DNA from: a virus
IMG/VR virus record: IMGVR_UViG_3300008459_000008
Span: 1 to 64,000 of that record
Length of the DNA stretch: 64,000 nt
Strand: one strand, 5' to 3'
Shown here: one piece after another, positions 1 to 6,506 of the stretch
Layout of the letters: each line of letters begins with the position of its first letter
Position numbering within the stretch: the first letter of the stretch is position 1
Translations under genes and position numbers: made by a program
Notes under the pieces: model-generated
The model's database searches: none
What the model saw: the letters and a program-made list of their open reading frames with translations, nothing else
Told to the model about the DNA's origin: nothing

Positions 1-1641
1 AGCGAAAGTAGCTTCGGAGATAAGGCTGATAGACTGAGCCATTAAGTAAGGTACGAAGATAAGACCTGGTTGGTCAGCATTGTTCTTTCTACCAAGAACG
101 ATTCTGTTATCGTTGTACTTCATATATGGATCAACATAAATCTGAATGTCACCGATTTGACCAACTGGATAAAGCTGACCAGAACCATTGATTTTGGATT
201 TAGTTGGGTTGATAGTATAACCAGCGATATCCATAAGAGCTGCTGCAAGACCCCCGTTAGTAACAGCGTACTGTGCAGGACCCACACGACCTTCAGTTGC
301 GATGTAGTTAGAAGCGTGTACCATTTTAGTGATAAGCTTTCTTTGTACAGCGTGTGTAGTTTCACCACCTGGGAACGAAGCGTAAGCAGTATCTAAATCG
401 AAGATAGTCGTAGCAGTAAGACCAGCAGTTCCGTAAGAAGTATAACCACTCTTAAGAGGAGCAGAAGATCTGTTATTATCTCCTAAATTGAAGATATTAG
501 CAACGATTTGCTTGGAGATAGTCTGAGAAAGTTCGTTTACGAGGATTGACTCCATCTTTTGAACGATATCCATACCAGTGTTAGCTTTGATATCTTCGAT
601 TTCAGTTCTTCTAAGAGCTGAAGATACTTCAATAGTACCAACTGCGATAGACTTAGAAGAAATCTTCGGTCCGATTACACCAGAGTATGTGTTATCATCG
701 GTATCACGGGACATTGGATAGAAACCAGAAGCTGAATTTGTTGGTCCGAACCAGTTAGCAGAGAAACCAGGAAGATGATCTTCAAGTGCAGACACTAGTT
801 CAATAGTGGTATCATTTGTTGTCAATGAATAAGTTCCGAGAAGCTTTAACTGATCTTTCATAGACTGTGTAGGACTTACGAATGTATTCTGAGAAGCATC
901 GAATGTGTAAGCATAGTTACCATCAACTCTTTCAGAATTTGCTTGTCTGTACGCTCTGAAGATAGGGTTTCCATCAATACGAGAGAAACCTAAGAATTCT
1001 ACAGCACCACCATAAACAGTTGGTTCAACTTGTGCGATAGCAGTTTCACCAGCAGCACCTTTCCAATAAATACCAGCAGCACCAGTAGCTACTGTCAACC
1101 AAACTCTACCACCTCTAAGACCATCTGCGGTAGGATATACACCAGATAGAGCTAATTGAGCCGGATAGTTTGCTTTGAAAGATGCAAGAGATGTAGCAGC
1201 AGTTACTTTGAATACTTGTGGACGACCAGTCGTTCCACCATTTTTAAGATCATCATATTGGAAATCAATATAAAGGAGATCTAATTTTGGACCTGGTGAA
1301 GGCTTTACAGCAACAAGGTCAAGACCAATTGTTTGAGCTGCAATCTTCATAGCTACAGGAAGGAGGTTTTGACCAAGGTCACCAGAACCTTGTACACCAA
1401 AGTTACTGGAACCACTTGCTACAGCGTTGATTGTGCTACCAGCGTAGATAGATGGTTGAGGAGAGGTTACAGAACCCATACCTGCTAATGTTGCGTTTAC
1501 ATACGCGTTTTCGTTGATTGAGTGAAACTCGGCATACTCAGACATCCAATCAAGTCTATCTTCGCCCGCAACACCCATGTTCTCAAGAACTGGAGCCCAC
1601 TTCTTAAGAGCTTTTGATTTGTCAATTCTAATGTGTGACAT
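1..1641 (-). CDS. 23: Major capsid protein gp23, C-terminus beyond the left edge
   Basis: The minus-strand frame opens at an ATG at 1641 and stays open for 547 codons to the window edge, so the gene is incomplete at its 3' end. The product begins MSHIRIDKSKALKKW and contains DLVAVKPSPGPKLDLLYIDF, the counterpart of the conserved N-terminal segment of T4-type capsid proteins. The last readable part, PGLIFVPYLMAQSISLI, matches the conserved near-C-terminal region. In this family it forms the hexamers of the head shell and is processed by the prohead protease. A candidate cleavage site is SINE followed by NA (E44), an I-x-E signal, which would remove a 44-residue N-terminal segment. The protease-scaffold gene lies just upstream in the same direction, as in T4 (21-22-23). 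The identity is firm; the exact cleavage site is inferred. Confidence 0.93.
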   Translation of the reverse strand, partial: MSHIRIDKSKALKKWAPVLENMGVAGEDRLDWMSEYAEFHSINENAYVNATLAGMGSVTSPQPSIYAGSTINAVASGSSNFGVQGSGDLGQNLLPVAMKIAAQTIGLDLVAVKPSPGPKLDLLYIDFQYDDLKNGGTTGRPQVFKVTAATSLASFKANYPAQLALSGVYPTADGLRGGRVWLTVATGAAGIYWKGAAGETAIAQVEPTVYGGAVEFLGFSRIDGNPIFRAYRQANSERVDGNYAYTFDASQNTFVSPTQSMKDQLKLLGTYSLTTNDTTIELVSALEDHLPGFSANWFGPTNSASGFYPMSRDTDDNTYSGVIGPKISSKSIAVGTIEVSSALRRTEIEDIKANTGMDIVQKMESILVNELSQTISKQIVANIFNLGDNNRSSAPLKSGYTSYGTAGLTATTIFDLDTAYASFPGGETTHAVQRKLITKMVHASNYIATEGRVGPAQYAVTNGGLAAALMDIAGYTINPTKSKINGSGQLYPVGQIGDIQIYVDPYMKYNDNRIVLGRKNNADQPGLIFVPYLMAQSISLISEATFA

Positions 1642-1714: not shown

Positions 1715-3811
1715 TTATAGATTTTTGAATCTTTCTAAGATTGATTTCATTTCATTTTCTGCTAATCTATCTTCTTGGATTAATGGTTCAGATGTTAAAA
1801 GAGTTTTCGATGTTTGCTCTTTTTTCTTCATGTTCCTTGTCATCCAGAAGTGTTCGATATTAGCTTCAGTTGTCAGGTCAGGATAAAGTCTAGCCTGTGA
1901 AATTACGGATCTCTTAGTAGATTCGTTTAGTTGGGACCAGATTGGCTTAATGTTTTCGGGCATCAATCTAATCAATCTCTCTTCAAGAGATTCATTTTGA
2001 GCTGATAACGCTTCTTGAATAAGTCTTAAAACATCAGTGCCTGTAAAATAACTCTTTTCGTTTATGTAAAGTTTTACTTGCTCTTGTTCGTCTTGTGATA
2101 GATTATAGTAACTATCAACCTGACGTTTGTTCAAAAACCTCAAGAAATGTAACTCATTTGTTTCAGAAACTTTGCGTTTTGTAGCTTCTAATATAAGTTT
2201 GTCAATTTGTTTGGATAGGTCAGTATCCGAATTTTTTTCATATTTCATTTCAGAAGGTTCATCCATCATTTCTTCACCTTCTTCACCTTCTTCTTCATCA
2301 CCAGTTTCCATCATTTCCATACCCTCTTCATCAGACGACATTTCATCATCCTCCATATTCATAAGGTAAGATGTTTCTTCCTCATCATCCTCCTCGGAGT
2401 ACATATCTTCTTCTGGCATTTCATCCTCTTCTGGCATTTCTTCAAACCCGAATTCTTCTAATGTAGGTATGAATTTATTGTCCTTACTTTCATTAACTTT
2501 ATTGGAATTCAATTTTTCTGCAATCATACCAGCATAAGAAACGGTTTTGTCTAAATTCTCTGCTAAATATTCCGAATAAGAAATATTATCATCAAGATGC
2601 TCAGCGATATATTCAGAATATGCGATGTTGCCCTCAACGTGTTCAGCTAGGTATTCTGAATAAGCGATTGAATTGTCAAGGTGTTCAGCTAGGTATTCTG
2701 AATAAGAAATACCCTTATCAAGATTTTCTGCGATATACTCTGAATAAGCAATATTCTTATCGAGATTTTCTGCGATATACTCTGAATAAGCAATATTCTT
2801 ATCGAGGTTTTCTGCTAGGTACTCAGAGTAGGAAATATTCTTATCGAGGTTTTCTGCTAGGTACTCAGAGTAGGAAATATTCTTATCGAGATTTTCTGCT
2901 AGGTACTCAGAATAATTAATTGCTTTTTCTAAATTCTCAGCTAAATAATCATTATGTGAAATTAACTTCTCAGCAGTTGATTTTAGAGAAGTGTTTTCAT
3001 TTACAACAACCTGAACTCTCTCTGCTAAATAATCGAGATACTTAACAATTTGAGTATTTGTGTTATTCAACTCTTCATAATATTCTAAGAGTTGCTCTAA
3101 TTTTTTTGGTGCCATGTTACCTGTCTTCACAGCATTCTTAACTTCTTTTTTAGCAGAAGCAATCTCATTGATAAGATACTTCGAATAGTCAGTTAGTTGT
3201 TGTTTGGTAACGTATTCATTCTTGTTCATATTGAATAGATCGTTTATTTTTGACTCGTCGGACATTTCATATATCCTAAAGTTAGTTTCTTTTTTGAATC
3301 CAAGTGATTCGTTGATAGAACTCATTCTCGCAGAAGCAAATCCAGGATCAGCAACTATATCATAAGTAAAAAGTTTTTTAAGAGTGACTGTTCCGTCATT
3401 CTCAGTTACACCAGCGGCTCTTGAAGAAACAAAAACTGGACAACCATCTTCTACAAGAGATTGTGCTTCTTTTCCCCAATAGGTATTAAGTAATTTGATT
3501 TCACCCTCTACACGATTAGATTCTTTTATAAAGTTAGCTTTTCTGATAGTGTGTGAAGCTCTTGATAGAGATGTATCAAAAACATCGGGATGGTCAAATT
3601 CACCGTATACTACACCCATGGTGTTGATACGTTCATTCAGTTCTTTGAGACAAGGGATAAATTTCTCAGCCGTATAAATTCTCTCGTTACGATTTTTTAC
3701 ACCGAACTCGGTAAATATACCACCAAGGACATATTCCTTTTTGCCTCCAGAAACCTGTACATTCTCCTTCAAAGGAGTTGTATTGTTTTCAACAATTAGG
3801 ATTGGTTTCAT
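1715..3811 (-). CDS. 21: Prohead protease (gp21) fused to a repetitive, acidic scaffold (gp22-like)
   Basis: The 698-aa product joins two functions that are separate genes in T4 (gp21 about 212 aa, gp22 about 269 aa). Residues 1-170 are the prohead protease: GEFDHPD with His74 and VFVSSRAAG with Ser129/130 fit the catalytic His and Ser of this assemblin-like serine protease family. Residues 180-440 are helical and include eleven in-register 14-residue units of the type YLAENLDKNISYSE. Residues 450-520 are extremely acidic (Glu/Asp/Met-rich), and 530-698 form a second helical region. Such a protein should form the core of the prohead and then be destroyed. SINE at 165-168 could free the protease, every repeat carries LAE or IAE, and IVE at 6-8 could trim the N-terminus. 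The protease identity is strong. The scaffold role is inferred from position, composition and helical repeats. Confidence 0.9.
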   Translation of the reverse strand: MKPILIVENNTTPLKENVQVSGGKKEYVLGGIFTEFGVKNRNERIYTAEKFIPCLKELNERINTMGVVYGEFDHPDVFDTSLSRASHTIRKANFIKESNRVEGEIKLLNTYWGKEAQSLVEDGCPVFVSSRAAGVTENDGTVTLKKLFTYDIVADPGFASARMSSINESLGFKKETNFRIYEMSDESKINDLFNMNKNEYVTKQQLTDYSKYLINEIASAKKEVKNAVKTGNMAPKKLEQLLEYYEELNNTNTQIVKYLDYLAERVQVVVNENTSLKSTAEKLISHNDYLAENLEKAINYSEYLAENLDKNISYSEYLAENLDKNISYSEYLAENLDKNIAYSEYIAENLDKNIAYSEYIAENLDKGISYSEYLAEHLDNSIAYSEYLAEHVEGNIAYSEYIAEHLDDNISYSEYLAENLDKTVSYAGMIAEKLNSNKVNESKDNKFIPTLEEFGFEEMPEEDEMPEEDMYSEEDDEEETSYLMNMEDDEMSSDEEGMEMMETGDEEEGEEGEEMMDEPSEMKYEKNSDTDLSKQIDKLILEATKRKVSETNELHFLRFLNKRQVDSYYNLSQDEQEQVKLYINEKSYFTGTDVLRLIQEALSAQNESLEERLIRLMPENIKPIWSQLNESTKRSVISQARLYPDLTTEANIEHFWMTRNMKKKEQTSKTLLTSEPLIQEDRLAENEMKSILERFKNL
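2516..2947 (-). repeat. 42-bp in-frame tandem repeat, 14-residue coiled-coil units with LAE/IAE
   Basis: Eleven consecutive units put the first residue of the L/I-A-E tripeptide at 290, 304, 318, 332, 346, 360, 374, 388, 402, 416 and 430, an exact 14-residue spacing (two heptads). A related YLAE lies two units upstream at 261-264. Units differ by synonymous and conservative changes (Y-S-E-Y, N/H, L/I), so the array is under protein-level constraint. Confidence 0.92.
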
Positions 3812-3937: not shown

Positions 3938-4369
3938 ATGTATAAAGTTGAAATATTTCCAAAAAAAGAGACCTTTTTTGATGACCTTTTAATTTTTTTA
4001 TCCGAAAAATCTTCTCAATTCAGAAGAGATTTTTCTATTCATAATATATTAAACGATAGTCTATCCCTCGATAAAAAAAGAGAATATTTCACTATTAATA
4101 ATAAAATCAAATTAGAAAAAGTTTATGGGAGCACTTTTCAATCCTATCTCAGAGGAAATGATAATATTTATGCAATATCTCACACCATAACCTTTTTAGA
4201 ATTTGATACCGACAAAATTTATGGAATTTTGGAACCTTCAGATTACGGTGATGTCATAGATTTTTCCAAAGGTATATTGCAACCTGTTTACTATAGACCC
4301 GATAAAAATTCTAATTGGAAAATTGCAACTTTTGATATAGATTTTAATATAAGTAACATCGCGGCATGA
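3938..4369 (+). CDS. Unknown 143-aa protein
   Basis: I do not recognise this protein. It starts MYKVEIFPKKETFFDD, is lysine-, aspartate- and aromatic-rich, and has no signal peptide, membrane segment or cysteine motif. It is divergent from the protease-scaffold gene and has its own AATATATA motif. Its stop overlaps the next start (ATGA, 4366-4369), so the two plus-strand genes form a translationally coupled pair inserted among minus-strand head genes. No Shine-Dalgarno sequence precedes the start, which is usual in this window. Confidence 0.7.
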   Translation: MYKVEIFPKKETFFDDLLIFLSEKSSQFRRDFSIHNILNDSLSLDKKREYFTINNKIKLEKVYGSTFQSYLRGNDNIYAISHTITFLEFDTDKIYGILEPSDYGDVIDFSKGILQPVYYRPDKNSNWKIATFDIDFNISNIAA

Positions 4370-4770
4370 TCCTCACTAGAGAAATACTCATAAAAATAAA
4401 TGAGTCCAATTATTCCTACTATGAAGAATTGGGTTATGATGTAACGATTGGAGAAACTATAGAAATTCCTATAGAATTATTGTCTACTGGTAGTCACTAT
4501 AAAATTGAATGTAAATGTGATGGATGTGGTAAACATAAAGATGTAATTTTCAAAAATTACATAAAATATGGTAATCGTTGGGGAGAATATTATTGTCGTA
4601 AATGTTCCGAATCAAAAAGAAAAGCCACGTTAGTCCAAAATTTTGGTGTTGAGTATCCAATACAAAATAAGGATATCAGAAAAAAAATCGAAACAACTAT
4701 GATACAAAAGTTCGGAGTAGATAATCCATCAAAATCCAAAGAATTGATTAACAAAAAAATCAAATCTTAA
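4366..4770 (+). CDS. Zinc-ribbon protein with homing-endonuclease-type DNA-binding repeats
   Basis: The 134-aa product has a four-cysteine zinc-site candidate, CKCDGC followed about 35 residues later by CRKC. Its C-terminal tail carries two tandem motifs, QNFGVEYPIQNKDIRKKI and QKFGVDNPSKSKELINKKI. Repeats of the type KFGVxNPsqs-ke--kKi occur as DNA-binding modules in phage homing endonucleases and related proteins. No catalytic nuclease domain (HNH, GIY-YIG or PD-(D/E)xK) is visible. It may therefore be a free-standing DNA-binding protein or the remnant of a homing endonuclease. It overlaps the preceding gene by 4 nt and its stop overlaps the convergent portal stop by 3 nt. The DNA-binding call is from memory of the motif; the function is unknown. 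Confidence 0.65.
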   Translation: MILTREILIKINESNYSYYEELGYDVTIGETIEIPIELLSTGSHYKIECKCDGCGKHKDVIFKNYIKYGNRWGEYYCRKCSESKRKATLVQNFGVEYPIQNKDIRKKIETTMIQKFGVDNPSKSKELINKKIKS

Positions 4771-6506
4771 AACTCAAATTCTCCACCCCCACCAGCTTGG
4801 GCTCCTCCTTGAGCTGGAGCTGCCTGAGCCCCTCCTTGAGCTGGAGCTGCCTGAGCCCCTCCTTGAGCTGGAGCGGTTTCAGCAGAAGCTTCTGCTCCAC
4901 CACCGGCTTCAGCCCCACCTTCAGCACCAGCCCCACCTTCAGCTCCACCCCCTTCTGGAGCACTACCACCACCTTGAGCCGACTTAATCCAATAAGCCTT
5001 GTTCTCCTCTTTTTCCTCAGGTGTGAGTTTGAGTATTTTATCTACAAGGTAATCAATGTGAAAATAAGGTGTTCCATCAGCTTTGACAATTCCCAACAAA
5101 GTAGATAGGAGACCAGAACGTTTTTCCAAATTACCTAGTTTTTTCCACTCTTCGAATAGTTGATTAGAATGGAAAATTACATCAACCTGATTAAGAAAAA
5201 CCTCATCATCTTTGAGTTCTGGAAATTCAATACACATCTGTAATTTGATCGGCTTTACAATAATTTCTTTATAATTTGCTCTTATTCGACTTATGAAATT
5301 ATTGAATTTAACCTCGTCTCTTGTCATCGAGGCTGCATCATCAAATACTGTTCCTCCTCCATTTTCCTTATCAAATCTCTGGAATGGAATTTTAGAAGCT
5401 CTTTTCAACGCATTGAAAAACCAGGTCAACATATCATTCTCATTTAAATTGTGACCCTCCGGACTGACTAATTCCATAGCTGGTGTGCCAGCATCTCCCT
5501 CGGGAAACCAAATCTGTTTATTGTATGGTAAGTGTTTTTTTCCATTTATTGTAACAGTACCTAAAGTATCATCCCACTCAATCTCCTCTGAATAGTCAGC
5601 AATCAACTGACCTATTTGTTCTTCAGCACGTTGTCTTGGGAGACCCTTGATTGGTATGGTAAACTTCTGATAAATTGTAGCATTTATGATATTAAACATA
5701 ATTCTTGTTTGCTCAAGAATTTTTAGTTGATTATATGGTCTTATGAGGCCCTCTACATAAGATGTTTCTGAATAATCATTTTGAGTGGAATACGATACGA
5801 AAACAATTTGTGAATCTAAGAATATTCTCCTCAACTGAGGGTCTTCTGGAAATTGTATCCACAAATTACCTATTGCTGGCTCATAAGCAGGCACAAGTGT
5901 TTCTGGTCTCAATCTATTGAAATAGATAATATTCTTTTTTTTATCATCCCAAACAATTTCGAGTGCGACATATCCATCAATCATATAATCCCTCATCATG
6001 TTCCAAGCTGTTATACCATCTGAAAATCCGAACTTATTGTAAATCTTTTCAAAGAATTCTTGGTATTTGTCTTTTATCTCTTGAGAATAATCATTAGAGA
6101 TGGGACTTGGTGAACAGAAATCTTGCTCATCATCATAATCTATAGCTTCATCACAAACCGCTGATACAAAATCTCTGATTTCATCTTTTATAGAATATTC
6201 TCTGAGTATTCTTCTTTTGTCAGCGTATGACCTATCTAAATAAGGTATGGATTTTCTATTCAAAACGGAAGCCACAGCTTTTTGAGAAAAGAAATCATAC
6301 ATGGAGTTATTCTTCTGAGAATATGGATCCTCATTCATACCAACACCAATAGTATTTCTGATGATCATATCATCATACTTCATACCGAAATTCGATAGGC
6401 TTCTCAAAAGTCTATTAAATAAACCTTTGTTCTCAACAGAAGAGGATACTAGATTACTAGTACCTTGATTTTGTTGTTGATTTAGTGGGTTATAACTTCC
6501 AGCCAT
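4767..6506 (-). CDS. 20: Portal vertex protein gp20
   Basis: The 579-aa product matches the T4-type portal in length and internal sequence. It includes the DMLTWFFNALKRASKIPFQR segment and the FDDAASMTRDEVKFNNFISR segment typical of gp20. It forms the dodecameric ring through which DNA enters and to which terminase and neck bind. The C-terminal 70 residues are unusual: low-complexity Gly/Ala/Glu followed by three APAQGGAQA units and GGGGEFEF, a flexible tail absent from T4 gp20. The start at 6506 has an AATATATA motif 20 nt upstream. The position after the scaffold and capsid genes agrees with a T4-type head cluster. Confidence 0.92.
   Translation of the reverse strand: MAGSYNPLNQQQNQGTSNLVSSSVENKGLFNRLLRSLSNFGMKYDDMIIRNTIGVGMNEDPYSQKNNSMYDFFSQKAVASVLNRKSIPYLDRSYADKRRILREYSIKDEIRDFVSAVCDEAIDYDDEQDFCSPSPISNDYSQEIKDKYQEFFEKIYNKFGFSDGITAWNMMRDYMIDGYVALEIVWDDKKKNIIYFNRLRPETLVPAYEPAIGNLWIQFPEDPQLRRIFLDSQIVFVSYSTQNDYSETSYVEGLIRPYNQLKILEQTRIMFNIINATIYQKFTIPIKGLPRQRAEEQIGQLIADYSEEIEWDDTLGTVTINGKKHLPYNKQIWFPEGDAGTPAMELVSPEGHNLNENDMLTWFFNALKRASKIPFQRFDKENGGGTVFDDAASMTRDEVKFNNFISRIRANYKEIIVKPIKLQMCIEFPELKDDEVFLNQVDVIFHSNQLFEEWKKLGNLEKRSGLLSTLLGIVKADGTPYFHIDYLVDKILKLTPEEKEENKAYWIKSAQGGGSAPEGGGAEGGAGAEGGAEAGGGAEASAETAPAQGGAQAAPAQGGAQAAPAQGGAQAGGGGEFEF
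4794..4874 (-). repeat. 27-bp coding repeat (APAQGGAQA x3) in the portal C-terminus
   Basis: Three 9-residue units lie directly before the terminal GGGGEFEF, with a Gly/Ala/Glu-rich stretch upstream. The repeats are nearly identical at the DNA level, which suggests recent slippage expansion. Confidence 0.85.

Follow-up and report, generated by a model that had tools for sequence, protein, structure and literature searches.

We found that a virus related to uncultured huge phages encodes a T4-type prohead protease fused to a probable head scaffold, a rod of 14-residue units; most likely its own protease cuts it at many of these units, as happens in T4. That many or most units are cut, which would make the T4 mechanism a regular one, we regard as moderately probable. 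Directly seen are the fusion, the protease fold, the gene order, the repeat, and the conservation of a glutamate on the exposed face of the unit. The window analyzed here is a stretch of 64,000 nucleotides, positions 1–64,000 of a 106-kb virus record (IMG/VR IMGVR_UViG_3300008459_000008), and its features are collected in Table 1.

A protease fused to a scaffold-like protein at the head locus

An earlier note, made from the DNA letters of the window, had claimed that a protease is fused to a scaffold-like part and that the latter acts as a scaffold. The first claim is supported by the match of the protease domain to the T4 gp21 structure 5jbl in Foldseek (E 9.4e-8, probability 1.00). The fusion protein also matches the head maturation protease family PHROG 207 (E 1.7e-31), and its match to Pfam Peptidase_S77 (1.4e-5) missed the gathering score, with 25.1 bits against a cut-off of 27, a shortfall that is a matter of score threshold rather than a biological feature. 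H74 (in GEFDHP), S129/S130 (in VSSR), and D151/D155 are invariant in the aligned relatives and are candidates for the catalytic His, Ser, and Asp.

The second claim is supported by position. The gene order is portal, fusion, major capsid protein, with the capsid gene running from 1641 down to the window edge, and the distance from the fusion to the start of the capsid gene is 24–101 bases in 105 of the 106 related loci in which that gene was located. There is therefore no room at this locus for a separate gp22 gene, and the fusion occupies the gp22-type place between protease and major capsid gene. Two opposite-strand ORFs lie between portal and fusion (window 3938–4770, + strand), the second of which, judged by eye, resembles phage homing endonuclease-type proteins at its start. 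The portal protein has a C-terminal tail (window 4767–4970, − strand) built as a Gly/Ala/Gln-rich repeat of 27-bp and 18-bp tandem units, and a Gly/Ala/Gln-rich tail is present in the portal of a 735-kb phage too.

Table 1. Features of the fusion gene and its neighbors, in window coordinates. Residues are those of the encoded protein; arrows mark predicted cuts.
Feature	Position	Strand	Evidence
Portal protein gp20, upstream neighbor of the fusion	4767..6506	−	Portal_T4 E 2.7e-56
Fused prohead protease-scaffold gene, 698 aa	1715..3811	−	PHROG 207 and Pfam Peptidase_S77
Protease domain, residues 1–168, T4 gp21 fold	3308..3811	−	Foldseek 5jbl and invariant columns
Predicted N-terminal self-cleavage site, I6-V7-E8↓N (LIVE↓N)	3788..3796	−	E8 invariant, 42 relatives
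Predicted protease/scaffold junction site, I166-N167-E168↓S	3308..3316	−	N167 and E168 invariant, 42 relatives
Met195 codon, candidate internal start for free scaffold; start of scaffold part	3227..3229	−	Conserved Met
Continuous predicted helix, residues 274–435	2507..2992	−	AlphaFold2 pLDDT ~57–75; hydrophobic moment
Array of eleven 14-residue units, consensus YSEY(L/I)AENLDKNI(A/S), residues ~286–439	2495..2956	−	
Acidic linker, probably disordered, residues 440–530	2222..2494	−	Sequence; pLDDT ~27–48
C-terminal helical domain, residues 531–661	1829..2221	−	Predicted structure; common to fused Lak phage protein
Predicted major capsid protein maturation site, I42-N43-E44↓N	1510..1518	−	INE↓N in near relatives

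Scans returned about 130 related fusions, which we grouped as lineages A (that of the window), B, C, and D; in a tree of the protease, A and D are supported as groups, and B and C do not resolve as single clades. The named relatives are uncultured huge phages of 642 and 634 kb (73 and 71% identity), followed by phages of 735, 636, and 462 kb, and the search of bacterial genomes returned one short MAG contig only.

The earlier note had relied on the T4 rule of cleavage after L/I-x-E, and the sites predicted in the same genome fit it, namely INE↓N in the capsid protein and LIVE↓N and INE↓S in the protease. The N-terminal site has a counterpart in the LIE-9 site of T4 gp21 (PMC9026906, PMC9958956), and variants of it occur among the relatives. 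Just past the protease core, T4-type gp21 proteins read ITE↓S, IME↓S, and similar; at the junction site here, P3 is V in most members of lineages C and D (VNE, VYE). The capsid site is INE↓N in all 79 near relatives examined, and in distant relatives, where found, it is MNE↓N, LNE↓N, IHE↓N, LYE↓N, or LNE↓S; in lineage C, every member where it was found has LYE↓N or LNE↓N. V at P3 was absent from all capsid sites found among the relatives. Should cleavage occur at the VNE and VYE junctions, the protease would accept V at that place, and V-A-E units of the array may be cut too.

The 14-residue array and its exposed glutamate

The translated ORF confirmed the count given in the earlier note, with eleven L/I-A-E triads at residues 290, 304 … 430 in exact 14-residue steps (window 2516–2944), and TRF independently reported a 42-bp period. 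Another LAE lies in register upstream of the array, at residue 262, and the intervening unit reads LKS. The view of the repeat as a two-heptad helix unit gained support from the AlphaFold2 helix, predicted with moderate confidence, and from the hydrophobic moment, which gave a hydrophobic period of 3.5 residues per turn and hence two heptads in each unit. Searches of known families returned only low-complexity or unknown-function matches for the repeat, and a sequence search of solved structures returned no meaningful match.

In composition shuffles of the repeat region, the mean number of L/I-x-E was 4.3 compared with the 11 seen (P 0.0008), a test in which the array copies are not independent of one another. 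Random permutation of a single unit produced at least one L/I-x-E in 42% of cases, and the array of the window has more mirror motifs E-x-L/I than L/I-x-E (19 versus 11), so the triad on its own is weak evidence. The repeat itself far exceeds what chance would give, whereas an L/I-x-E inside it, taken alone, does not. Over the whole of residues 195–698, 23 L/I-x-E were seen where 13.3 were expected (P 0.002), a site richness of the gp22 type. The 42% rate and the commoner mirror motif both speak for an alternative in which the rod is structural, a spacer or ruler, with L/I-A-E as a by-product of an amphipathic two-heptad unit and with cuts mainly at the junctions, so that the rod leaves in large pieces. 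We consider this reading possible though rather improbable, and the conservation of individual positions bears on it directly.

For this comparison, a unit was taken as core if positions 1 and 4 were both aromatic or His; these two positions are therefore not independent evidence. Arrays mostly hold 11–14 core units in lineage A, 10–14 in B, 4–9 in C, and 10–14 in D. Position 7 is glutamate (E7) in 690/693 core units of A, 124/130 of B, 11/11 of the branch of the 636-kb phage, and 88/90 of D, and pooled outside lineage C in 913/924. Lineage C keeps the register, with E7 in 51/72 units and L/I-x-E in 34/72, and its units often read VGL, IAN, LAV, IVK, and the like. Of the 996 core units in total, 964 have E7, in the form L/I-x-E in 862 and V-x-E in 102 (~10% of all units). 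The expectation that unit number would vary while the glutamate stayed fixed thus held in three of the four lineages and failed in C, where the finding that the note had named as contrary to its proposal, relatives in which L/I-x-E is not conserved, was in part obtained. Lineage C demonstrates that a rod may be retained although some of its units lack a site; it is no demonstration that site-bearing units go uncut. When folded, the repeats of lineage C were helical with very low confidence.

A structural rod would be compatible with lineage C, which holds register and helix yet loses many sites, and with the units that have V at P3. It leaves the behavior of E7 to be accounted for. A helical wheel places E7 176 degrees away from the hydrophobic direction, so packing does not need it, and it is nevertheless the best conserved polar position of the unit. 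Position 14 points to the same side and ranks with the most variable positions in lineages A, B, C, and D. E3, which is polar too, is less conserved than E7 in all four. In lineage C too, E7 ranks near the top for conservation, roughly equal to position 5 and exceeded only by the two aromatic positions by which units were selected. A fixed, exposed E7 beside a variable position 14 and a weaker E3 favors a function for E7 beyond packing.

That the repeat is neutral, a slippage-prone stretch without a function of its own, we judge very improbable, even though unit number varies and tandem units are alike in sequence. Among the nine inner units of the window (36 pairwise comparisons), synonymous codon differences outnumber amino-acid-changing ones, 187 to 122, and the 14-residue unit is present in 80 of the 80 nearest relatives, which together indicate that the array is not a recent product of slippage. 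Moreover, the array has been kept in four lineages, and the window and lineage D have a common unit consensus although their fusions are only 42% identical over the aligned part.

Comparison with T4 and other phage heads

T4 gp21 cleaves after L/I-X-E and cuts gp22 into multiple fragments, most of which leave the head (PMC9026906, PMC9958956). In nine T4-type gp22 scaffolds, we counted 13–24 L/I-x-E each, 1.8–3.5 times the expectation from composition (each P < 0.02), with a median spacing of 12–19 residues and an excess over the mirror E-x-L/I (148 versus 96, p 0.001). T4 gp22 itself has 16 in 269 aa, with a median spacing of 15 and irregular spacings of 5–29. Since a site every 12–19 residues is usual in T4-type gp22, the new thing here is the exact period, and the 14-residue array looks like a regularized form of the T4 strategy. 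The two systems are alike in protease fold, in the order portal, protease, scaffold, capsid, in dense L/I-x-E in the scaffold, and in a predicted N-terminal self-cleavage site; they differ in that protease and scaffold are one gene here and two in T4, and in that the gp22 sites are irregular. Comparisons of the repeat and of the C-terminal domain with T4-type gp22 led us to reject homology (hhalign probability 0.5–1.4%, E 0.04–0.12), and the scaffold part is therefore likened to gp22 in its working and not classed as a member of that family. Just ahead of the array (residues 256–273, ~window 2993–3046, − strand), YLDYLAE resembles a conserved gp22 stretch that reads FIDHLAKEW in T4 and YLEYVADEW in S-CAM7 (hhalign P ~0.04, a single comparison), a suggestive likeness that points to origin only.

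In T4, gp22 exceeds gp21 about tenfold (580 versus 55 copies, PMC9958956), and a fusion, which fixes the ratio at 1:1, leaves the source of free scaffold to be explained. Hypothetically, an internal start at Met195 could be one source. This residue is Met in 68/68 members of lineage A, and a Met lies near there in the B and C members checked; the dip in synonymous variation at codons 175–187 is no deeper than elsewhere, and no clear constraint at the RNA level was seen near Met195. Lambda C/Nu3 likewise holds protease and scaffold in one reading frame and makes free scaffold from an internal start. The lambda C protease is unrelated to the gp21 type, and for the window fusion such a start is a hypothesis only.

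Another fused protease is that of the Lak (Prevotella) megaphages, which combines a protease, an acidic linker, and the same C-terminal domain (hhalign E 1.4e-4 over 110 columns) in one protein; unlike the window fusion, it has no 14-residue repeat. In one lineage D phage (L174, 1529–2803), the fusion stops just past the repeats, and a second ORF, from 2807 onward, encodes the C-terminal domain; the two may be truly split, or a frameshift or an error of assembly may have parted them. The head proteases of phiKZ and SPN3US cut after glutamate at a short motif, A-x-E or S-x-E, and the multiply cut propeptide was proposed to yield fragments that clear the capsid easily; a counterpart of gp22 in giant phages was unconfirmed as of 2017 (PMC5694885). 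The window protein resembles these in its predicted cutting after glutamate at several sites and differs in its periodic array, which is not described for them. In the literature on prohead proteases, scaffolds, and huge phages, of which few subscription journals were covered, we found no description of a periodic scaffold.

The unit also occurs outside the fusion. In the 735-kb phage LR756501 (record 620141–620269, L154, and 716337–716429, L155), it recurs in further proteins: one of 210 aa has three units adjoining collagen-like SGS repeats, and those of 80 and 237 aa each have a C-terminal hydrophobic segment resembling a membrane anchor. Small proteins that are mostly three or four units are encoded in LR745206 (87 aa; record 460483–460629, L162) and in a 507-kb contig (65 aa; G002, 271177–271308, L163). 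Units in a few unrelated proteins suggest an additional role in binding. The unit might be a helix-docking module: carrying between one and four copies of it, other phage proteins would attach to the scaffold rod and so be recruited into the head or to where it is assembled, much as targeting sequences recruit T4 internal proteins. We hold this to be unlikely: such proteins are sporadic, being absent from the window's 106-kb record and from two large relatives (464 and 642 kb), their location in the head is an assumption, and docking leaves the fixed E7 unexplained. A version that joins docking to cutting seems to us similarly doubtful; in it, unit-bearing proteins, some seemingly membrane-anchored, would bind the multivalent scaffold rod through the same unit, and the protease would later cut the units at the fixed glutamate, dismantling scaffold and docking sites together.

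Proposed mechanism and significance

In the reading that we prefer, a scaffold cut by its own protease, the fusion protein would build the prohead core; in its scaffold part, two-heptad helix units in tandem would form a long rod, with the acidic linker and the helical C-terminal domain after it. The protease would free itself at its two predicted sites, trim the capsid protein, and cut the rod behind the glutamate in many or most of its units, and the small rod peptides would leave the head so that DNA can enter. If every unit were cut, as we infer might happen, the products would be uniform 14-mers. The regular cutting sites would have arisen by repeat expansion. We counted against this reading the site losses in lineage C, the V-x-E units, the 42% chance rate, the mirror motif, the repeat-less Lak fusion, the units elsewhere, and the absence of homology to gp22 in HH comparison; in addition, sites within a coiled coil may be hard to reach.

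Head assembly has been little studied in the largest known phages, and the relatives described here reach 735 kb. For this group of huge phages, gene order identifies the likely scaffold, fused to its protease. With its regular array, the T4 rule of scaffold removal by cleavage after L/I-x-E could be tested with an easily read outcome, and the enrichment of L/I-x-E in nine T4-type gp22 proteins provides a general sequence signature of a degradable scaffold.
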